From positions 62,001 to 126,000 of the forward strand of contig NZ_JAAMTH010000009.1 in NCBI RefSeq assembly GCF_018283455.1: a stretch of 64,000 nt of DNA, in the 5' to 3' direction. Position 1 is the stretch's first letter. Each line of letters begins with the position of its first letter. A program made the translations under genes and the position numbers. Positions 29,978 through 53,225 of the stretch are shown piece after piece. The notes under the pieces are model-generated. The model had not been told where the DNA came from. It was given only the letters and a program-made list of their open reading frames with translations, and did not search any database. The stretch comes from Planococcus sp. MSAK28401. GTDB taxonomy: Bacteria > Bacillota > Bacilli > Bacillales_A > Planococcaceae.

Positions 29978-29998
29978 TTAAGAAAGCGAGTGTTTATT

Positions 29999-31306
29999 AT
30001 GAGTTTTAAAAATGCAGTTTTTAGTAGTACAAAGATTAATACAAGCCTCAATTTCGGATTTATCGGATTAGGTATGGGCGGGAATTCAATTGCTGCAGCT
30101 TGTGCAGATATCTCTACTAATATACCGAACAAAAAATATCCTTACTCCGCATTGCTTATTAATACCAATCAAATCGATCTTGATAAAATCGAAGTGCAAA
30201 ACCCTGCTATCAATAAGTTACTGATTGGGAGCGGCCGAGGTGCAGGACGGAATATTGATTTAGGCGAACAAATGTATCTTGAGAGCGAAGGAGAAGTTCA
30301 AGAGCAGATTAAAAATCAGTTCAAGGATTCAGATTTCATTTGGATTGTAGCAGGCCTTGGCGGTGGTACTGGTACAGGTTCTATTATTCAAGCAATTGGT
30401 TCAGTAATGAAGTCAGGCTTCAAAGGTAAGTTCGGCTTAATTTTAACTTTGCCGCGAAAAAATGAAGGTTTGACTGTATTATCAAATGCAATTAAACGAT
30501 TGAAAAAAATCAATCAAGCCATGCAAGCACTAGGCTCAATGATTATTGTCGATAATCAAAAACTATTTGATCACTTTACTGAAACCAAATCTAATTCAGC
30601 ACTCATTTCTGATTATCTATCCTTTACTAACCAATTCATTGCTGAATCACTACACGAATTAAACGTTGTTACAGCAAGTTATAAGCCCGTAGGTGAAAAC
30701 CACTTTGACAGTTCAGAGTTTGAAAACCTAGTTAAGACGCCTGGCGTACTTCACTTCTCTAAGTTTTCTAAACCAACCTCTGATATTTCTACTTCTAAAG
30801 CTGAAGATCAAGTTAATGACTTCAAGGAAAACATTGTAGAAGGAATTTTGTCAGACGGATATGATTTGGGTCGTACTAAACGATTAGCCGTGAGCATACT
30901 TGCAGATGAAGCCACTAGCAATCGAGTCTTTAACTTTGGATTCACGAATGCAATTGAATCGGAAATTAATCATATTGCCCCTATCGCAAACGAAAAACCA
31001 ATTGCTTTTTATAATTATAATTACAAGAACATAAAAGATACTTACTTCTATTCGGTATTTGCTGGACTCCAATTACCTGAAAGAGTCAAAGCAATGATCC
31101 AAGAAAGCAACCGATTGCAAGAAGCTGAAAAACAAGCTGCCCTTCCAAGTAACGACGACATATTTGCTGATTTTGAGGAAGTTAAAGTTGCTGGTAACGA
31201 TGCTGAACTCGAATTCGAAGATATCTTTGGTAGCTCAAATGAAGAAGAAAGCTCTAAAAAAGAGAATGAAACGGAAGATGCTTTTGATATCCTGTTCAAA
31301 GATTAA
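29999..31306 (+). CDS. tubZ: TubZ tubulin/FtsZ-like plasmid partition GTPase
   Basis: A 435-aa GTPase. The tubulin signature GGGTGTGS is at 121-128; the T1-like GLGMGGNS at 23-30 and LTLPRKNEGL at about 151-160 also fit. The C-terminus (about 370-435) is acidic and unstructured, as in TubZ tails that bind TubR. Filaments treadmill and pull TubR-bound plasmids to the poles; in pXO1-like plasmids the homologue was once called RepX because it is needed for replication or maintenance. I chose the ATG at 29999, with AAAGCGAG upstream. A terminator follows at 31314-31350. Confidence 0.92.
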   Translation: MSFKNAVFSSTKINTSLNFGFIGLGMGGNSIAAACADISTNIPNKKYPYSALLINTNQIDLDKIEVQNPAINKLLIGSGRGAGRNIDLGEQMYLESEGEVQEQIKNQFKDSDFIWIVAGLGGGTGTGSIIQAIGSVMKSGFKGKFGLILTLPRKNEGLTVLSNAIKRLKKINQAMQALGSMIIVDNQKLFDHFTETKSNSALISDYLSFTNQFIAESLHELNVVTASYKPVGENHFDSSEFENLVKTPGVLHFSKFSKPTSDISTSKAEDQVNDFKENIVEGILSDGYDLGRTKRLAVSILADEATSNRVFNFGFTNAIESEINHIAPIANEKPIAFYNYNYKNIKDTYFYSVFAGLQLPERVKAMIQESNRLQEAEKQAALPSNDDIFADFEEVKVAGNDAELEFEDIFGSSNEEESSKKENETEDAFDILFKD

Positions 31307-39107: not shown

Positions 39108-39144
39108 AAAAAAAGAACCGCTCCTATAAGGAATGCGGTTCTTT
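39108..39144 (-). terminator. Terminator overlapping the 3' end of the ThiF gene
   Basis: On the minus strand AAAGAACCGCAT and AGGAGCGGTTCTTT form a stem followed by Ts. The upstream arm lies inside the last codons of the ThiF/E1-like gene (stop at 39124), a compact convergent arrangement with the terminator of the lipoprotein operon. Confidence 0.8.
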
Positions 39145-39999
39145 AGTCTGTTTAATCGCCTCTGTAGAGCGCATATAGCCTTTCTTAGCTTGAAAGAAAG
39201 TAATGTGACTACTTAGGGTCATATCTTCTACAATCTCCGTCAGCACGCTTAAAATAGCTAATGCAGAGAATTTATTAACGATTAGTCGTTGTGGTTCGCT
39301 AGCGGTTAGTTCTGTACAGGATAAAGAGCTAGGTCGTTCTTGGTCATCTGTTTCAAGAATATCTGGAAAGGCATCTGCTACAGTTGGTAGCTTAGCAAGG
39401 TTCAGATTCAAGCCAGTGACAATTTGACCGCTCCATCCGCTTTCGTTGAACGCTTTTAATTCATCTTCGGTCCATTGAGCTTTCGAGCGCGTTTGCCAGT
39501 CAGCAGGGACCACAGTAGATTCATTTCCAGCATCAATATATATACCTGCATTTTCCTTTATGAAATCGTGAATCACTTTGCGGGTATAGTTGTTATCAAC
39601 ACATCCGATCACAATCGGCATTAAGATATCCGAATAGGAAATGTCTGTTAAGTAGTCCGTGTTAAAAAGTTCTAACACATCTTCTACTGATTCAATATAG
39701 CCCGTGGTTTTGCTGCGAATATCAATGTTGTAAGCATAAGAATAGCGGGATGCAAGCACGTCAGCTTTTTTCAATCCAACTTCTGAAGCTAAAAACAATT
39801 GATTCCCCAAATTCTTCTCTTCAATCACGTCGGGATCGGCAATAACATAAGTAGCGGCGCGTTTACTTGTTCCAAGCAATTGTGCAATATGCTGAACGAG
39901 ATAACCACCCGTACCACCTGTCCCGATTTGAACGATAAATGGATAAATGCCTTTTTTGGTAGAGTAATCCGTTTTTGCTGAATCCAGAAGGTTAATCAT
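39124..39999 (-). CDS. ThiF/E1-like adenylyltransferase (PRTRC-like)
   Basis: A 291-aa E1-like enzyme. The nucleotide loop is GTGGTGG at 26-32, followed by ADPDVIEEKNLGNQLF at 54-69 with the Asp that binds Mg-ATP and the Asn/Gln after it, and a basic VGLKKADVLASR. Cys residues in IGCVDNN and SLSCTEL are candidates for thioester formation. Such proteins adenylate the C-terminus of a ubiquitin-like protein. It overlaps the JAB gene by four bases and lies downstream of the E2-like gene, the set seen in PRTRC systems. No ubiquitin-like gene is evident, so the substrate is unknown. Confidence 0.88.
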   Translation of the reverse strand: MINLLDSAKTDYSTKKGIYPFIVQIGTGGTGGYLVQHIAQLLGTSKRAATYVIADPDVIEEKNLGNQLFLASEVGLKKADVLASRYSYAYNIDIRSKTTGYIESVEDVLELFNTDYLTDISYSDILMPIVIGCVDNNYTRKVIHDFIKENAGIYIDAGNESTVVPADWQTRSKAQWTEDELKAFNESGWSGQIVTGLNLNLAKLPTVADAFPDILETDDQERPSSLSCTELTASEPQRLIVNKFSALAILSVLTEIVEDMTLSSHITFFQAKKGYMRSTEAIKQTKEPHSL

Positions 40000-40961
40000 T
40001 TGGCCACCTCAATCTTGTGGAGATCGTACTCTGGGAGTTCAGAAAACGGTGTTTCAAATAAATCTGTGAGATTTAATGATTTGTGACCAATCTCTTCATT
40101 CACAAACATTCGAGCGGTCATATCCGGAAAGAATTTCTGTGTATGCCCGATAATGGCATAGCACATTCCTGGAGATCGCTCAGATTGATTATCAAGTGAA
40201 GAGGGAGCGGGTGGCATAGTATGGTGCGAATGAATTTCTAGAAGTTTCATACCATCCGAAAAGCGGTCAGCTAATTCAAATATTGTCTCGATCACTTCGA
40301 TCTGATATTCTTCAACTCGCTGCGAAGGAATATCCAACACATATTGTTGAGTATTCGTCATATAGTAGATGTCGGCATGAACTTCAAGGCTATGCTTTCC
40401 ATACTCTTTAGCTATCGCAATAAATTGCTGTAGCAAAGTAAATGGAAGAGGATAAAGAGAAGACCGGAAGTGATTCCGGTCTTGATTTGGTGCGCCTTTC
40501 GGTTTTGCTTTCATGACGATCACGATAATGTTCTTTTTCTTCAAAAAGACCACATCGGTATGATTTTTAACCAATTCCGGATACTCTTTCTCCATCCGCG
40601 CTCGGAGCATTTCTCCGGTTAGCGGCTGGCGTACAGGGTCTTGGTCTTTTTTCTTCACAAGCAATCCTTCAGCAAGCTCTTCAGGTGAAAAGAAATCCAC
40701 TACCGGTAGCGAATCGCCCATGAAGCGAATAACGGTCTCTTCGTCCGGTTTAAAAGCGTCTGCGGCATCCTTTTTAGGAGCGGGAGCTTTTGGGGCTTCT
40801 TTTGGTCCATATACAGCATTAGCAGCATTAACTTTCTTCTGCAGTTCTTCTTGCTGTTTGGCTTTCTTCTCGGCTTCAGCTTGTTTTTTCTGGTTTTCTT
40901 TATCTTGTTTCTCTTTTTCGTTGGAATCCACCATATTGAAAAGCTCGAAAATGTTAGTCAT
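39996..40961 (-). CDS. JAMM/JAB metalloprotease (PRTRC protein A-like)
   Basis: A 321-aa protein. Residues 1-75 are a charged, Lys/Gln-rich, probably coiled segment. The C-terminal half contains the complete JAMM zinc motif: H244-S-H246, then seven residues, S254 and D257 (HSHHTMPPAPSSLD), preceded by a strand with E242 and followed by GMCYAIIGHTQ as in JAB folds. JAMM enzymes cleave isopeptide or peptide bonds after ubiquitin-like proteins. With the E1-like and E2-like neighbours it would process or remove a conjugate. Its start has GAGGAG upstream. Confidence 0.85.
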   Translation of the reverse strand: MTNIFELFNMVDSNEKEKQDKENQKKQAEAEKKAKQQEELQKKVNAANAVYGPKEAPKAPAPKKDAADAFKPDEETVIRFMGDSLPVVDFFSPEELAEGLLVKKKDQDPVRQPLTGEMLRARMEKEYPELVKNHTDVVFLKKKNIIVIVMKAKPKGAPNQDRNHFRSSLYPLPFTLLQQFIAIAKEYGKHSLEVHADIYYMTNTQQYVLDIPSQRVEEYQIEVIETIFELADRFSDGMKLLEIHSHHTMPPAPSSLDNQSERSPGMCYAIIGHTQKFFPDMTARMFVNEEIGHKSLNLTDLFETPFSELPEYDLHKIEVAK

Positions 40962-41017
40962 AGTAAGTTCTCCTCTCTTGAAGCTATCCTCTAAGGTATA
41001 GGCTTACTCAAGTCCAA

Positions 41018-41737
41018 TTAATAATCTGTTTCTCTCAAAACCTGTTCGAGTGTTTTACGTGCGGGAACAAGCCAATCATCGCTATAGGGCTGCTCGTCCA
41101 ATTCGTGAAGCAACTTCCGGAAAGTGTTGATTCCTAAGGTAGTCCGTACACCATGGTCCTCGTTAAAAGGAGCAGAAAAGAACAGCAATACTGCTTTTTT
41201 CGCTTCTAATAGAGAATCGACCAGGAGTCGTTCGTTAATACCCCAGCAAACCGTTCCAGAGCCTTTCATGACGTTTGGATAGGGAAAGTCATATAAGGGC
41301 GTTTCAGGCGTAATGGGCTCCTTATTGTTCTCTACCGCATAAATCCGCATCGTATCAATTAGTTTTTGATTTCCCATGCCTTTGAGTTCACACATAAAGA
41401 TCATTCGAGGAAAGGCGAGAGAAAAGAATTCGTCTTCACCTTTGTATCGAATATCAAATGACTTTTGCGGAATCTCAAAAACGACCTGCTCTAAATTTCC
41501 ACTCGGATGACTGGAATAAAGTAATGTGCCTTCCGGAAGAATAGGGGAGACGATCATCTCTTCTCTCAAATTAGGTTCGCTTTCAGGCATTTCGCTAATG
41601 TTAGACAATACGCGAATGACTTGTTCCAATGAAAAGTATTGTTCCGGCCCTTTTACACCTGGGGCTATCTCTTGGCGTCCGATGATTGGAAAATCGGGAT
41701 TTTTTGGCACGTCAGTGAATTGCAATGTCCAATTCAT
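41018..41737 (-). CDS. E2-like conjugating protein (PRTRC protein B-like)
   Basis: A 239-aa protein. The key feature is YPNVMKGSGTVCWG (residues 153-166), which mimics the HPN...GxxC active-site segment of ubiquitin-conjugating E2 enzymes, with Cys164 as the expected nucleophile; a preceding FPYP turn and beta strands (about 85-145) fit an E2/RWD-like meander. PRTRC protein B shares a PFFNV...G-x-V-C box. The start at 41737 overlaps the previous stop (ATGA) and has AAGGAAGTGA upstream; the longer frame to 41830 is not used. It is separated by 56 bases from the JAB gene. The call is from motif and context. Confidence 0.7.
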   Translation of the reverse strand: MNWTLQFTDVPKNPDFPIIGRQEIAPGVKGPEQYFSLEQVIRVLSNISEMPESEPNLREEMIVSPILPEGTLLYSSHPSGNLEQVVFEIPQKSFDIRYKGEDEFFSLAFPRMIFMCELKGMGNQKLIDTMRIYAVENNKEPITPETPLYDFPYPNVMKGSGTVCWGINERLLVDSLLEAKKAVLLFFSAPFNEDHGVRTTLGINTFRKLLHELDEQPYSDDWLVPARKTLEQVLRETDY

Positions 41738-42243
41738 GAAGTCACTTCCTTTTTGGTGTTTTTGCTGTGAAGCAATATCTCTCTCAACGCATCGTCGTAT
41801 GCTGGTAAACCGAAATCGGTAATTGTGCAAAAAAACAATTTACCTTTCTGTTTTCCGAACGCCAATGATTCGTCGTAATCTAGACAATCGATTGGGAAAT
41901 CGGCGGCAGCAGGATAATCAATTTCAAAAATCGCCAGCTCTTGGTTTGTAAAAGCTTTTTCGATTTTCTCTTTTCCGCTGTCTGTAAATTGGCTATTAGC
42001 CATAAAGCTCTCGTAGTCTTTATCAAAGTCATCACAATACGTATCGTAAACAGTTAACTCAAAAACTTTAGATACAATGCCAGTGAAGACTTCGACTATT
42101 TCTAAACTGCCATAGTAGGTAGGAATGATAGAAAGATCCTTTAGTTTCTTGGGCTCTATCCCCGACTTAACTGCGACAGCTACCAGTTTTAAAGACCGCA
42201 AATATTCTTGGCACATATAAAATTCTTCATGCTCCATGCTCAT
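41734..42243 (-). CDS. Hypothetical 169-aa protein of the E1-E2-JAB operon
   Basis: A soluble acidic protein starting MSMEHEEFYMCQEYLRSLKL, with an alpha/beta pattern and no recognised motif. GAGGTGATTCC precedes the ATG. It overlaps the E2-like gene by four bases and follows the 111-aa gene by 9. It could be a PRTRC accessory protein or the modification target; it lacks a C-terminal Gly-Gly and does not look like a beta-grasp ubiquitin. Confidence 0.6.
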   Translation of the reverse strand: MSMEHEEFYMCQEYLRSLKLVAVAVKSGIEPKKLKDLSIIPTYYGSLEIVEVFTGIVSKVFELTVYDTYCDDFDKDYESFMANSQFTDSGKEKIEKAFTNQELAIFEIDYPAAADFPIDCLDYDESLAFGKQKGKLFFCTITDFGLPAYDDALREILLHSKNTKKEVTS

Positions 42244-42252
42244 GGAATCACC

Positions 42253-42588
42253 TCATATCAACGGAAAAGCCGGTATAGGCCTTTCCGTTTCAGTTTTAGA
42301 AAAATTCCACATTATCTCGAGCATACAAAGAAGAGAGGACCACGGTGAGTCTTGTAAGAAGTAGATGGTGCCTAATTCATCTTCACTTCTTACAGATTGC
42401 TCAAAGAGGTCATATGCTTTATTTACCGCCTCAACAGTTAAGAGAGAAAAATCGATGTGTTTGACGTCCATTCGATTCAACATACAATAAAGCGCGTACA
42501 TCTCCTTCTCTACTTCAGCAGATTCATTTCTTTCATAAACAGGCTGCGCTTCGAAAGCAGCGTTTATCTTTTCAAAGTCGTATTTCAT
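42253..42588 (-). CDS. Hypothetical 111-aa protein, first gene of the E1-E2-JAB operon
   Basis: A helical acidic protein starting MKYDFEKINAAFEAQPVYER. No family recognised. GAAGGAGAATTGGT precedes the ATG. It follows the dnaN terminator and leads the operon, so this group may rely on read-through from dnaN. No ubiquitin-like features or terminal glycines. Confidence 0.6.
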   Translation of the reverse strand: MKYDFEKINAAFEAQPVYERNESAEVEKEMYALYCMLNRMDVKHIDFSLLTVEAVNKAYDLFEQSVRSEDELGTIYFLQDSPWSSLLCMLEIMWNFSKTETERPIPAFPLI

Positions 42589-42663: not shown

Positions 42664-43767
42664 TTAATATGTTCTCACTGGCAAGATCAATTGTACTTGC
42701 TTTGTTTTTTCGTTAACTCCCTCTACAGTGAATGGGCGCTGGGCTCCACAAAAGTTCAGCTTAACAGCATCTGAATCGATTCGTTTCAGAGCTTCAAGCA
42801 AAAACCCAGAAGAGAAAGAAACTGTGAATCCGGCTTCACCCGTGTATTCAATAAATGAAAGCTCACGATGTCCTTTAGCGGTTTCGTTTTTTGAATCCAG
42901 CTTTACAAAAAGTCCATCCACTTCTAGCTTGATTACGCCTTCTGAGGAAAGAGTCGATAGCAACTGAAGAGATTCAGTGAATTCTTTAGCGTCTACTGTC
43001 AATTCGCCATCAAAAGTTGTCGGAATCAAACGCTGTGTGTCAGGATAGTTGCCTTCCAACAAGCGAGAGTAATAGATCGTATTCCCGTTGGCCATCGCGA
43101 TTTGCGAGGTATCAATTGATAAGAGAATATCTTTGGAAAGGTCAAATGCTTTTAATGCGTGATCCAGCATTTTACCAGGAATCGTAACCGATACTTCCTC
43201 CAATTTCTCTTCCAAAGGAATAGTGACTTTTGCTAACCGATGGCTATCAGTCGAGATTGCTTGCAGGGTTTCGCCAACCTGTAGATTCACGCCTGTTAAA
43301 ACAGGGCGAGTTTCTGTTTTGGCAACTGCAAAAACCGTTCGGGAGATAAGTTCAGAGAACTTTTGGCCCGTTAGAACAATTGGCGCTGACGTAGGATTGG
43401 CTCCGATCTTCGGATAATCCTCAGCTGCCATTGTCGTGAAGCTCAAAGAGGTTTTCTTTCCTTGAGTCACCTGTAGGTTTTTGTCAACAAGCTCGAATGT
43501 GATTTCTCCACTAAGTTTAGATGTAACTTCAAAAGCTTCTTTTGTAAGAACAGCCGCTCCTGCAGTGTCAATCATTGTTGTTTCTCCATTTGGAAGAATG
43601 CGATGAATGATACTTTCGCTGGCGTTACTGGCTGTTAGCACAATACAATCGTCCATTGCTTCTACTTTAATTCCTGACAAAATTGGAATCGTACCTTTAG
43701 CGTTCAGAACCGGACGGAGTTTTTGCATAGCTTGTTGGATAGCATCTTTAGTTAGTGTGAATTTCAT
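42664..43767 (-). CDS. dnaN: DNA polymerase III beta sliding clamp
   Basis: A full-length 367-aa beta clamp: MKFTLTKDAIQQAMQKLRPV at the N-terminus, PILSGIKVEA in domain I, ETRPVLTGVNLQ with STDSHRLAKV in domain II, SRLLEGNYPDTQRLIP in domain III, and the C-terminal QLILPVRTY that closes the partner-binding pocket. The clamp tethers polymerases to DNA. A plasmid-borne copy could support plasmid replication or repair, or replace the host clamp when host factors are targeted. It lies after the Rad52-like gene and its terminator. Confidence 0.95.
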   Translation of the reverse strand: MKFTLTKDAIQQAMQKLRPVLNAKGTIPILSGIKVEAMDDCIVLTASNASESIIHRILPNGETTMIDTAGAAVLTKEAFEVTSKLSGEITFELVDKNLQVTQGKKTSLSFTTMAAEDYPKIGANPTSAPIVLTGQKFSELISRTVFAVAKTETRPVLTGVNLQVGETLQAISTDSHRLAKVTIPLEEKLEEVSVTIPGKMLDHALKAFDLSKDILLSIDTSQIAMANGNTIYYSRLLEGNYPDTQRLIPTTFDGELTVDAKEFTESLQLLSTLSSEGVIKLEVDGLFVKLDSKNETAKGHRELSFIEYTGEAGFTVSFSSGFLLEALKRIDSDAVKLNFCGAQRPFTVEGVNEKTKQVQLILPVRTY

Positions 43768-43879: not shown

Positions 43880-44881
43880 TTAAGCTGGTTGAACCGCTTT
43901 ACGGTCTTCTTGGATCAGCTGAATCGTTTCATTACAAATGGTTTTGTCCATTTTAAGCAATAGGCTCAAATGGCTTTCCAGTTTCTCGTGTAGAGTAATT
44001 TGCGCGTAATACAGCATTTCATCTTCCGTCAATTTTAGACTTTGACAATACTCAATGTACTTTTTGACGGGGATTAATACTTTGGCAACTTCTCTTAATT
44101 GTTCTTCGGTAGCTTCCCCTATTTGCATCCGCTCACCGGTAATTTTCTTCATGAGTCCAGGTACAAACTCGACACCGATTGAAAGCGACTTGAATAAGGA
44201 AATTGTATGCTCCAAAGGAGATTTCTCGGTCATACTCGATGCCATATCAGCTGATTTTCCAGTACGGTCTTTTGGCTTTTCATTTGATTGGTCGAGATGT
44301 GCCGTTGTAGTGCTAGAATCAAAAGTCTCTGTTCGCTGTTCTTGGTTGTTGGATTGCTTACATCCTTCAGGCAAGAACTTCGCAGGAATAGTAGGCGGGT
44401 TAAATTTACCGCTGATTTGTCTTTTCTCTCCCGAAATTTTGAAATAACCATACACGTTACATTTGCCTTTTTTCTGTAACGGTACCCAAAAATTAGGGAG
44501 GTCATACAAATATCGGCCGATGCCCCATTGAACTGCTGCTCGTTTGAGGGCATTGGAATAGCCGCCTTTAATTGATTCAATGTCTGAAATTTCTGCTCCA
44601 TCAACTCGTGAGATCCATTCTCCTTCGATTTTGATGGACAAAATACAACTGAATCCTTGTTTCTGTCCTTTTGCGGTCTCGATAATCATTTGCTTGAAGT
44701 CCGATTTCCAAAGAGCTCCGCAAGTTGTATCTAAGCGATCCATAATAACGCGAGCATTTAGATAAGGGACAACAAGTATTGAGATTTCTCCGTTTCTCTC
44801 GGTAGCAGATTGAACTTTCCATTCGATTTCATCATAACTAAATGGTGCTTTCAATCCCTCCATAACTTTTGTGTTCTCCAT
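43880..44881 (-). CDS. Rad52/Rad22-like single-strand annealing protein
   Basis: A 333-aa protein. The N-terminal domain matches the Rad52_Rad22 family: MEGLKAPFSYDEIEWKVQ, NARVIMDRLDTTCGALW, and the signature SNALKRAAVQWGIGRYLYDL (about residues 105-124). The last 200 residues form a Ser/Thr/Gln-rich linker and a helical C-terminus. Such proteins anneal complementary single strands in plasmids and phages, often with SSB. The start at 44881 has GGGAAAGGGTGTA upstream, matching the site after leaders A1 and A2. It is the first gene after leader A3. Confidence 0.88.
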   Translation of the reverse strand: MENTKVMEGLKAPFSYDEIEWKVQSATERNGEISILVVPYLNARVIMDRLDTTCGALWKSDFKQMIIETAKGQKQGFSCILSIKIEGEWISRVDGAEISDIESIKGGYSNALKRAAVQWGIGRYLYDLPNFWVPLQKKGKCNVYGYFKISGEKRQISGKFNPPTIPAKFLPEGCKQSNNQEQRTETFDSSTTTAHLDQSNEKPKDRTGKSADMASSMTEKSPLEHTISLFKSLSIGVEFVPGLMKKITGERMQIGEATEEQLREVAKVLIPVKKYIEYCQSLKLTEDEMLYYAQITLHEKLESHLSLLLKMDKTICNETIQLIQEDRKAVQPA

Positions 44882-49841: not shown

Positions 49842-52244
49842 ATGTCCAATGAAGAATTACTATTAAATAAAGTTTTGGATGCGAGCTCCAATACAATCTG
49901 GGAAGAATTACAAAAAATTAAGGAATCCTCAGAAACAGAAAAGAAGATTATAAGACGTAGATGGGCATGGGAACTGATTCAAAATGCATCAGACTGTACG
50001 CCAAAAGGAGATAAAATAGATATAAACATCGAGTACGATGAAAACAATATTACGTTTGGTCATAATGGACTTCCTTTTTCATATGAAAATTTGTTGGATT
50101 TAATAACGCAAATCTCCTCGAAGCAAAGTTCAGAAGAAAAGAAAACAGGGAAATTCGGGACTGGTTTTATGTCGACCCATTTATTGTCAGAAGTTGTGCA
50201 GATAAAGGGATCGTACATTCAAAATGATAACCAATATACGCCATTAGAGTTTACTGTAGATAGGTCTGGTAATGAGTATAGTGAAATAAAAGACAAAACT
50301 AAAACTATGCTGGAGCAATTAAAGTTTTTAAATGGCAAACAAAAGGAATCAAGTGGAGTTTATGAAGATACAAAGTTTATTTATTCGCTAGAAAATGAAG
50401 AAATAAGAACTGCAGTTGCGGAAGGGATAGGGGATTTGAAAAAGAATATACCTTATGTCCTAACCTTTAACGAGCATATTAATTCTATAACATTTAATGG
50501 TAGTTGTTATAAAAAAGTAAACGAAAGGACTTCGAATATAAACGACAAGTTGAAAATAGTTCAAATCGATGCACCTGACGGAAATAACGAGTTGTTAATT
50601 TTAAATGAAAAAAATGTAACAGTTAGTTGTCCCGTAAAATTTGATGAAAAATGTTTGGTTTTTTTACCAATTCATAATAAAATTCCAAAAGTTTTTTGCG
50701 AGTTTCCACTCTTAGGCACCGAAGATTTTAGCTATCCCATAATTATTAACTCGAACTTATTTGAAGTAGAAAGAGACAGAAATGCTATTAGGGATAGTAA
50801 TAAATTAAACAATGATTTGATACAAGTAGCTGTTTCCTTATATAAGGAATTGATAGATTATTGTACTACGAGTGAAATTACCAAAAATGAGTTTAATATA
50901 TGCAGTCTAGAGAGTCCAGATACGTCAGCTATACAAAATTATAGCTATAGAGAAATTAGAAATTATATAGATACATCTTCAATTGTTCCTACTCATTACG
51001 GATGCGCTACAAAGTCAAAAAGGTCGGCTTTTAAAAACAGGAGTGGGGAAGTGGTAATGAGCATACCGACAACTGAAAAAGTAGAAAACCTAGATTTATT
51101 CTGGGACATTTTATCTGAGTTTGAAAACTTACCTATCCCGACTAAAGAAACTTATCGAGGTTGGGGTGTAGTTTTTGGAAGTAATATTCAGTTCTCTCAC
51201 ATTAATAATATTTATTTAAAAGATTCATGTCTTGATGAATTGACTGACAAAATTCAAAACAAAATGCCAATCTTTGAATGGTTAAATGCATTTTATAATC
51301 TTTGGCTCAAAGATGAAGGGCTTGAAAAAGTAATAGAGTCAGCACATGTATTAAACCAAAATAATAAATTTGTGAAGTTTGAGAAAGTAAACTTCGATAG
51401 TGGTATTAATGATGAACTAAAGCAAATTTTGAGTATATTAGGAGGAAATATTAAAGGACGTTTAATACGAAGCGAAATTCTTTCATTTAAAGACTATTTT
51501 GAAGAGTATCCTAAAAAAATTAAAACGAACGAAGATTGTTCTGTTCAGATTGAGTCTAAAGTATCTGAAATACTTGGAAAGGAAAACGTGGAAACAGAAA
51601 GAGAAGAATCTATTCAAAGAATATTCAACAGATTAACAAATTGGTTCATATCAAATCCGGAAAAATCGAAAGAATGGTTTGAAAATTTATACCCTAAGAG
51701 AATGATGTTATCTTCTCCAGAAGAAAATTTGAGAAGGTACAAGATAGCTGAAAAAATAGAAGAAAAAAATATAAAGTATGAAGAATTAGATGAAATCATA
51801 AATAATCGTGAAAAAGTAATGGAGATCATAACTAATTCCGAACTAAGCAAAGAGGAGATCATTCAACAGCTCAAACATGTTGTCACGTCATCCGAAGAAA
51901 TGAAACGCTATGTCGAAAGCTTATTGTTTAGAAGTACGAAAAATGTTTACGAATATCTAAAGGGCCTTAGAGATTATACTCTTCCAGCAACTTTGGAAGA
52001 TTGGATAAACAAAAAATATTCAGAAACGGTATTTTCAGCGAAGTACAAAGGGGAAGATTATAGAATTATTATACGCCCAAGTGACTACCAAAAAATAATC
52101 TTCTATTATGATGAAGAATTAGAAGCTTTAGACGATGTAGACTATCAATTATGGACAGATGATGGAGAAGTACAGCGAATGGTTACCTTAGGTGATTTAC
52201 TTAAAACAACTGGTATATCTAAAATTCCATTAACTAAGTTATAG
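49842..52244 (+). CDS. GHKL (sacsin/Hsp90-like) ATPase, candidate defence sensor
   Basis: An 800-aa protein with an N-terminal GHKL ATPase fold: N-box WELIQNASD with E44 and N48, the HNGLPF box (74-79) in place of DxGxG, and GKFGTGF (103-109) as the lid glycine motif. HNG-type boxes of this form occur in sacsin-like N-terminal ATPases. The remaining 650 residues are not recognised; they are acidic and probably helical with an alpha/beta C-terminus. No HNH, nuclease or membrane segment is visible. It is followed by the AlbA_2-TIR gene after 15 bases, so the ATPase may sense infection and the TIR protein act as effector. Function is inference from domain pairing. Confidence 0.8.
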   Translation: MSNEELLLNKVLDASSNTIWEELQKIKESSETEKKIIRRRWAWELIQNASDCTPKGDKIDINIEYDENNITFGHNGLPFSYENLLDLITQISSKQSSEEKKTGKFGTGFMSTHLLSEVVQIKGSYIQNDNQYTPLEFTVDRSGNEYSEIKDKTKTMLEQLKFLNGKQKESSGVYEDTKFIYSLENEEIRTAVAEGIGDLKKNIPYVLTFNEHINSITFNGSCYKKVNERTSNINDKLKIVQIDAPDGNNELLILNEKNVTVSCPVKFDEKCLVFLPIHNKIPKVFCEFPLLGTEDFSYPIIINSNLFEVERDRNAIRDSNKLNNDLIQVAVSLYKELIDYCTTSEITKNEFNICSLESPDTSAIQNYSYREIRNYIDTSSIVPTHYGCATKSKRSAFKNRSGEVVMSIPTTEKVENLDLFWDILSEFENLPIPTKETYRGWGVVFGSNIQFSHINNIYLKDSCLDELTDKIQNKMPIFEWLNAFYNLWLKDEGLEKVIESAHVLNQNNKFVKFEKVNFDSGINDELKQILSILGGNIKGRLIRSEILSFKDYFEEYPKKIKTNEDCSVQIESKVSEILGKENVETEREESIQRIFNRLTNWFISNPEKSKEWFENLYPKRMMLSSPEENLRRYKIAEKIEEKNIKYEELDEIINNREKVMEIITNSELSKEEIIQQLKHVVTSSEEMKRYVESLLFRSTKNVYEYLKGLRDYTLPATLEDWINKKYSETVFSAKYKGEDYRIIIRPSDYQKIIFYYDEELEALDDVDYQLWTDDGEVQRMVTLGDLLKTTGISKIPLTKL

Positions 52245-52259
52245 GAAAGGAATTTTCTA

Positions 52260-53225
52260 ATGTTTAGCACAATTAGTGATGTCAAAAACAAAATTATTGA
52301 AAATAGCAGAGAGAAGACGACCTATCTGCACCCAATTGAGAGCCCTGAAGAAGTAGCAAAATTAATTGTTGCATACTCGAATAGTGACGGTGGAGACCTG
52401 GTCTTTGGAATACGAGATGATGGTAAGAGGCTAGAAGTGAAAAGCTTTCCTTTTAAATATGATTTGCAGAGTGTTCTAGAGCTGATAGAGGGAACGATAG
52501 ATATTCAGAGTGCAAAATTTAATCTAAATGACGCTAAACTTTTTTATATTTCTATCAATAAAGCAGACGAATTAGTAAAGGTAAATAAAACGATATATAG
52601 AATTGATAATTGTGGTCGTGCAGAGGAAATTAAGAATCAAAAAATATTTATCTCATATTGTTGGAGTGATCAAGCTTTTGCCGATTTAATTGATAACGAT
52701 TTTAAAACTATGGGGTATAGTTTGACTAGAGACATTCGAGATATTGAGTTTAAAGATAGTATCAAAGATTTTATGAAAACTATTGGAAAACACGATTTTG
52801 TGATTAGTATAGTTAGTGACAATTATTTAAAGTCTGTAAATTGCATGTACGAGATATCAGAAGTTATGCGTTCTAGAGAGTATAAAGAGAAAATGTTATT
52901 AATAATATTGAAAGAATCAGATAGGAAATTTCTACCTTCACCTGTAGAGGTAACTTCTGTATTTGCAACTAACATATATTCTTTGGAACAGCGTATTGAC
53001 TATATATCATATTGGGAAGAAAAAGAGGCAGCTTATTTAAAAATGATTCGAAAAATAACACAAGATACTAATAAAATTGAAGCTTTGCAGGAGTTAAAAA
53101 GGATTGAGAATATCTCGAGAAATGTTAGTGAGTTTTTATCAGAGATAAGTGATTGGAGTAATACTAATCTCAGTGAGCTTAAAGCATCTAACTACTCCGC
53201 TTTCACAAAAGAAATTAATAAATAG
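52260..53225 (+). CDS. AlbA_2-TIR protein, candidate NAD-degrading effector
   Basis: A 321-aa protein with two domains. Residues 8-115 fit the Schlafen/AlbA_2 fold (TYLHPIESPEEVAKLIVAYS, then SDGGDLVFGIRDDGK). Residues 127-250 form a TIR domain: KIFISYCWSD, RDIRDIEFKDSIKDFMK, DFVISIVSDNYLKS, and VNCMYEISEVM, where Glu198 occupies the catalytic position of TIR NADases. TIR enzymes deplete NAD or make signal molecules in anti-phage systems. It follows the GHKL gene by 15 bases with GGAAAGGAA as ribosome binding site. The C-terminal 70 residues are helical. Confidence 0.85.
   Translation: MFSTISDVKNKIIENSREKTTYLHPIESPEEVAKLIVAYSNSDGGDLVFGIRDDGKRLEVKSFPFKYDLQSVLELIEGTIDIQSAKFNLNDAKLFYISINKADELVKVNKTIYRIDNCGRAEEIKNQKIFISYCWSDQAFADLIDNDFKTMGYSLTRDIRDIEFKDSIKDFMKTIGKHDFVISIVSDNYLKSVNCMYEISEVMRSREYKEKMLLIILKESDRKFLPSPVEVTSVFATNIYSLEQRIDYISYWEEKEAAYLKMIRKITQDTNKIEALQELKRIENISRNVSEFLSEISDWSNTNLSELKASNYSAFTKEINK

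Follow-up and report, generated by a model that had tools for sequence, protein, structure and literature searches.

Plasmid cassettes with genes of a ubiquitin-like pathway have been known for about twenty years, with no function assigned to them. The nearest described class is operon type 6d, which combines a ubiquitin-like protein, JAB, E1, E2 and an alpha-helical protein and for which Gram-positive B. cereus and B. thuringiensis were listed (Iyer, Burroughs and Aravind 2006; PMC1779556 Table 1); the PRTRC system (NCBIfam TIGR03735–03738 and relatives) appears to correspond to it. We analyzed a locus of this kind in a window of 64,000 nucleotides from Planococcus sp. MSAK28401 (contig NZ_JAAMTH010000009.1, positions 62,001 to 126,000). 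Five contiguous open reading frames (ORFs), g1, g2, E2, JAMM protein and E1, were called at 39124–42588 of the window, all on the minus strand. It is rather probable that this block encodes, on a plasmid, a pathway of ubiquitin-like conjugation in which the modifier precedes its own JAMM protease in one fused protein, and which acts via clamp docking at the replication or recombination machinery. The proposal builds on domain make-up, an invariant Gly, catalytic residues, motif statistics and gene linkage, all observed in the sequences. The variant analyzed here points to a likely modifier and to the site at which it would mature, and the plasmid's sliding clamp is proposed as the place where it acts.

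Adjacent genes for an E1, an E2 without the classical His and a JAB protein, a ubiquitin-like protein with a conserved C-terminal Gly, and an extra helical protein are shared with type 6d. The Gly-ended protein of type 6d is represented here by a domain fused to JAB, and by standalone proteins in relatives, its fold being suggested by weak profile matches. The E2 of type 6d has an absolutely conserved His after the Cys, whereas this His was not invariant among the 19 E2s that we aligned. The JAB-N domain of type 6d (alpha+beta, with conserved Arg and Trp) was not seen in the window, where a short linker joins the ubiquitin-like and JAMM domains; the insert between them is longer in relatives from Paenibacillus and Clostridia. 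Neither "sliding clamp" nor "Rad52" occurs in the type 6d paper (PMC1779556).

With PRTRC the locus shares the gene order ...B-A-ThiF as well as homologous E1, E2 and JAMM proteins, and the fused ubiquitin-like domain seems to correspond to PRTRC protein C. However, a hidden Markov model search with the PRTRC families gave matches that all lay below the NCBI equivalog cut-offs: PRTRC_ThiF (3.1e-22) with 79.1 bits against 144.75, PRTRC_B (6.5e-12) with 45.3 against 131.45, and PRTRC_A (6.6e-5) with 22.6 against 101.8. The resemblance to PRTRC claimed in the first-pass annotation thus holds for the type of system and for the homology of the three enzymes, while NCBI's cut-offs place the block outside PRTRC. 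In the operon, no PRTRC genes for ParB, E, F or a separate C were found; the neighboring genes there are Rad52-like, DnaN, g1 and g2. Neither a fused ubiquitin-like domain nor a clamp motif was found in protein A from Cupriavidus or protein C from Cupriavidus and Deinococcus. PRTRC had also been presented as mainly proteobacterial and the locus as Gram-positive; the plasmid is indeed Gram-positive, and the wider class had been listed in Gram-positive bacteria already in 2006 (PMC1779556). The modifier–protease fusion, the clamp-type tail and the linkage to dnaN and rad52 are new elements; we found no description of them in the open literature searched (most subscription journals and preprints lay outside its coverage).

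The E2 recurred in 22 Bacillales plasmids, and the block g1-g2-E2-JAMM-E1 was present in the 18 of them that were opened, a few with insertions or gene splits. An E1 alignment used as a probe retrieved 80 further loci from genomes and 6 contigs from the viral collection; Clostridia and one Thermosipho bin are among them. The loci are not phylogenetically independent, several of them coming from near relatives.

Judged by family matches, the E1, E2 and JAMM genes were confirmed as real, beyond chance similarity. The E1 matched Pfam ThiF (4.4e-9) and the E2 matched Prok-E2_D (1.3e-12, 48.2 bits against a gathering cut-off of 25), both above the cut-off, which agrees with the ubiquitin-like E1/E2/JAMM set recognized at first pass; the Prok-JAB match of the JAMM protein (2.9e-5) was slightly under the cut-off. 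The signatures read in these genes at that stage, the GTGGTGG loop, HSHx7SxxD (H244/H246) and Cys164, were correctly placed in the sequence, and the catalytic residues of the three enzymes proved to be conserved in relatives. E1 Cys228 aligned with a Cys found in 103 of 104 relatives, and the Asp of VDN was kept in 103 of the 104 aligned sequences. The E2 Cys was invariant across the 19 aligned E2s, in which P77, P119, P156, V160, C167, F189 and L225 were the only invariant positions, and 86 of the 88 loci had the Cys motif; the other two are L113, in which a Cys still comes after PYFN, and L052, whose ORF is truncated. The JAMM motif was kept in every examined relative with a complete JAMM domain.

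The first-pass annotation had seen no ubiquitin-like protein ending in Gly; a predicted ubiquitin-like domain with this ending lies inside the JAMM gene, at amino acids (aa) 71–156 of its product. The front half of the JAMM protein is a separate domain, because standalone ORFs matched that half alone. Its last residue, Gly, was the sole invariant column in an alignment of 44 modifier domains. In the fused proteins an unconserved linker separates this Gly from the JAMM domain, and in eight distinct standalone relatives the stop codon comes directly after it (ends GAKKG, GGAKG, APKKG, SPKKG, and GAAKG); in Thermosipho five residues extend past the Gly. Clostridial precursors had the same layout, with ...SKG or ...KKG ahead of the JAMM part, and divergent family members retrieved in a later genome search again had KG and then the JAMM domain. 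Most of the standalone loci, those of the viral-collection group, had no JAMM gene in the retrieved DNA, and therefore maturation would not be needed there; within the set, L122 gave a short antisense chance match to JAMM, and L065 and L119 are an identical stretch. In L026 and L029 the standalone modifier was accompanied by JAMM as a separate ORF. A further search of the viral collection returned no standalone modifiers beyond those already found.

A profile of the domain, run across 261 genomes, matched exactly the 11 genomes that have the E2. A separate TIGR03738 (PRTRC_C) or PF14454 gene gave no match above the cut-off in the window's own genome or in eight related plasmids. The similarity of the domain to Prok_Ub and PRTRC_C is weak and recurred in several comparisons: Prok_Ub matched 5 of 16 family members (best value 5.6e-5); PRTRC_C matched 2 of the 44 domains (best value 4.5e-4), both from relatives; profile–profile comparison with six PRTRC_C proteins gave P 3.8e-5 over 36 columns, and PRTRC_C proteins end mostly in GTKG or GAKG. 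Searched against PDB sequences, the modifier profile returned a repetitive designed protein and otherwise chance-level matches. The N-terminal domain of the JAMM protein is the best candidate for the modifier of the pathway.

The same data bear on a different role of this domain, that of a permanent regulatory or docking part of the JAMM protein, with some other protein, or a small molecule in sulfur-carrier chemistry of the ThiS/MoaD type, as the substrate of E1 and E2. The copy in the window is fused, its cleavage being a prediction, and one family member had a weak ThiS match (0.024). Against such a role, the standalone copies have the invariant Gly precisely as their last residue, and the fused copies vary freely after it; a conserved E2 with an invariant Cys is present; and no second domain of the modifier family was found in the genome. 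We regard a permanent, uncleaved domain as improbable.

It had also been suggested at first pass that one of the two small proteins could be the modifier. Structure prediction by AlphaFold2 of relatives does not favor this: the model of a g1 relative was all helical (pLDDT 82.6), with a flexible C-terminal tail of low confidence, and that of a g2 relative was alpha/beta (pLDDT 90). With these predicted folds, g1 and g2 were rejected as beta-grasp modifiers. Foldseek found no PDB match for either model at E <= 0.001, and the best Z values of VIA-align (6.0 for g2 and 2.0 for g1) were not informative. Neither protein matched PRTRC E or F, g2 had no family match, and comparison of the g1 profile with the PRTRC_C profile gave nothing. 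In the gene order, g1 and g2 stand where PRTRC C and F do, with no homology found.

Across classes, g1 is conserved most strongly at its extreme C-terminus, where an aromatic residue is followed by a hydrophobic one: the penultimate residue was Phe in 49 of 58 distinct copies, and the last one was Ile, Phe, Cys, Leu, Tyr or Val. This constraint, together with the low confidence of the tail in the model, could be taken to mean that g1 is a helical, non-beta-grasp modifier activated via its C-terminus, as bacterial cGAS is by Cap2, an example of a non-ubiquitin protein serving as a modifier (PMC10097602). However, the end of cGAS must be Gly or Ala, and Ser, Val, Arg or Trp abolish conjugation (PMC10097602); moreover, a Gly-ended ubiquitin-like domain already fills the role of the modifier, so that g1 is a very unlikely candidate. 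Two other readings of these termini were considered. The g1 tail as an SSB-like acidic tip was rejected, as the Clostridial copies are not acidic and their last two residues are still aromatic/hydrophobic. The idea that g2 ends like cGAS, with its C-terminal Ala, was set aside, since this Ala could stem from overlapping stop and start codons.

The low-complexity tail ahead of the ubiquitin-like domain carries a motif that resembles sliding-clamp ligands. Of 34 distinct Bacilli proteins, 25 had Qx[DSTN][ILM]F near the start of the tail, where shuffling of the tails predicts 0.2; as the counting began after the motif had caught attention in the same data, this expectation understates the freedom of choice, yet the excess is large. 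Residue counts around the motif gave Q-T-D-[IL]-F-[SD], and one standalone modifier starts with MDQLNLFG (QLNLF); the published consensus of clamp ligands is QLxLF (PMC4549789). In the same Bacilli loci the termini of g1, g2, E1, DnaN and the Rad52-like protein were free of the motif, and of 47 E2 N-termini one had it. Among the other neighboring ORFs of at least 150 aa, 2 of 399 had it (as QISLF) in the first 45 residues. The segments TDSHRLA, EGNYPDTQRL and LILPVRTY of the plasmid DnaN, which presumably line the ligand cleft, closely resemble the solved clamp PDB 4tr6 in an alignment. By sequence, the modifier tail may thus bind the clamp.

The two QISLFD-start proteins are encoded near divergent copies of the system (L029, 4686–5615; L088, 721–1611). 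The former carries the annotation 5'-3' exonuclease (H3TH domain), and the latter is similar to it in sequence and unannotated.

Genes of DNA replication and recombination recurred beside the block. Of 105 loci, 47 had dnaN and 56 had a Rad52-like gene, as counted within the fetched stretches, some of which are short. The order in Bacilli was rad52-dnaN-g1-g2-E2-JAMM-E1, and that in Clostridia was JAMM-E1-(dnaN)-...-E2-rad52; two gene orders in two classes argue against simple inheritance of one arrangement. A cyanobacterial plasmid carries dnaN and dnaX a few genes after JAMM-E1, and in a Lysinibacillus plasmid the order is JAMM-E1-dnaX-delta'. A Pfam/NCBIfam scan of neighbors in the window located dnaN and the Rad52-like gene upstream of the block and in the same direction. 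These two neighbors had been named at first pass together with SSB-type genes; no SSB-type gene was found among the neighbors scanned. A second dnaN was found on another contig of the genome and is presumably the chromosomal copy.

Bacterial E1, E2 and JAMM isopeptidase are also shared with type II CBASS (Cap2/Cap3) and with Bil, a further defence cassette of this composition, in which the JAMM protease brings the modifier to its mature form (PMC11354881). The block could be an anti-phage or inter-plasmid defence module similar to these, and not a replication or recombination factor; such cassettes are known from defence (Cap2/Cap3, PMC10097602; Bil), and TIR and TmtA-like genes are present in the window. 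The operon differs from both in that cGAS is not encoded in it, modifier and protease are one gene, and its neighbors belong to replication and recombination and not to defence effectors. The linkage that recurs across phyla is with dnaN, rad52-like and dnaX and not with defence genes, PADLOC gave a generic E1 match alone for the operon, and no E2 match was found among 50,697 phage records. A function in defence is therefore considered unlikely.

For the conjugation pathway at the plasmid's replication machinery, we infer the following course of cleavage, conjugation, clamp binding and target choice. The JAMM domain, in trans or in cis, would cut the precursor after Gly156 (between KAKPKG and APNQ), freeing the protease and the modifier, the latter consisting of the N-terminal tail plus the ubiquitin-like domain. 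The E1 would adenylate the Gly and form a thioester at Cys228; the E2 would take the modifier onto Cys164 and conjugate it to targets, from which JAMM would later strip it off. The targets would most likely belong to the machinery by which the plasmid itself replicates or recombines, because the clamp-like tail motif occurs in most Bacilli relatives and dnaN and the Rad52-like annealase are co-encoded. The proteins g1 and g2 may be accessory factors, target-choosing or regulatory.

In eukaryotes, the PCNA ubiquitin/SUMO pathway places a ubiquitin-like modifier at the sliding clamp near Rad52-type recombination. As a tentative proposal, for which we see somewhat less than an even chance, the flexible tail of the plasmid modifier is a clamp ligand; it would provide targets with a clamp-docking tag or draw the conjugation machinery to clamp-bound targets, giving a reversible, clamp-centred control of plasmid replication or Rad52-type recombination similar to that by ubiquitin and SUMO at PCNA, with a modifier born fused to its own deconjugating protease. 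If the model holds, the two pathways work alike, by analogy only: no homologous clamp-specific E3 is involved, and the bacterial docking motif would sit in the modifier. If clamp docking is real, the eukaryotic-type reversible ubiquitin-like control at the sliding clamp would have a bacterial counterpart on mobile DNA.

Several observations weigh against the proposed pathway or parts of it. The tail in the window begins with MTNIFELF, in which the core TNIF is kept and the Gln is absent, and the Gln is absent throughout the Clostridial tails. About half of the loci had no dnaN in the fetched stretch. The ubiquitin-like (beta-grasp) fold of the modifier is suggested by the sum of weak profile matches and by the logic of the terminal Gly: in a Pfam scan of 16 family members, the window copy not among them, Prok_Ub matched 5 below E 1, all of them below the cut-off (best 5.6e-5, 23.3 bits against 25); the window's own domain had no NCBIfam match, PRTRC_C included; and a larger modifier profile (A5) gave a short, weak match to PRTRC_C (P 0.0036). 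Finally, Asn66 of the E1 occupies the position of the NRQ-motif Arg, which contacts ATP in known E1 enzymes; Arg was found here in 64 of 101 relatives and Asn in 37, mainly Bacilli and among them most Bacillaceae. The other tallied catalytic residues of the E1 were retained despite Asn66.

Table 1. Genes, domains and motifs of the ubiquitin-like block and its upstream neighbors (coordinates of the window).
Feature	Position	Strand	Description
g1	42253-42588	-	111 aa, helical protein, C-terminus ...FPLI
g2	41734-42243	-	169 aa, alpha/beta protein without family
E2-like enzyme (Prok-E2_D)	41018-41737	-	239 aa; ATG at 41737; catalytic Cys164 codon 41246-41248
JAMM precursor (tail + ubiquitin-like domain + JAMM protease)	39996-40961	-	321 aa
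E1-like activating enzyme (ThiF family)	39124-39999	-	291 aa; GxGGTG loop; Cys228; Asn66
Precursor N-terminal low-complexity tail, aa 1-70	40752-40961	-	Clamp-motif-like start MTNIFELF; QTDIF in relatives
Ubiquitin-like domain, aa 71-156	40494-40751	-	End MKAKPKG; Gly156, predicted mature C-terminus
JAMM metal-binding motif HSHHTMPPAPSSLD, aa 244-257	40191-40232	-	Kept in relatives
Plasmid sliding clamp DnaN	42664-43767	-	367 aa; TIGR00663 6.1e-72
Rad52/Rad22-like annealing protein	43880-44878	-	Pfam PF04098 2.2e-16

The host genome is Planococcus-like (Bacillales), and plasmid unnamed12 of Planococcus sp. MB-3u-03 has genes 92–97% identical at the protein level. The replicon also encodes type IV secretion system genes, a Replic_Relax protein and TubZ, a plasmid partition tubulin (window 29990–31306, plus strand). 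At 49842–53225 (plus strand) of the window, an 800-aa ATPase with a PADLOC match to TmtA (1.3e-101) is followed by a Schlafen/AlbA_2-TIR protein; they are likely a plasmid-borne anti-phage defence pair.

In the precursor linker, a few codons past the terminal Gly of the modifier, a hairpin of 10 pairs (AAGACCGGAATCACTTCCGGTCTT; window 40460–40483, minus strand) precedes a T-rich stretch; it is possibly regulatory or possibly due to chance. Among the relatives, group II intron reverse transcriptases were encoded in or beside the operon in L013 (9558–11369), L029 (10765–12660 and from 14671 onward) and L021 (from 15393 onward). In the Clostridial loci L069, L083, L085, L094 and L115, many proteins, among them E1, Rad52-like and g2-like ones, have -AA or -LAA as their last residues, which may be ssrA-type degron-like ends or a by-product of stop–start overlap.

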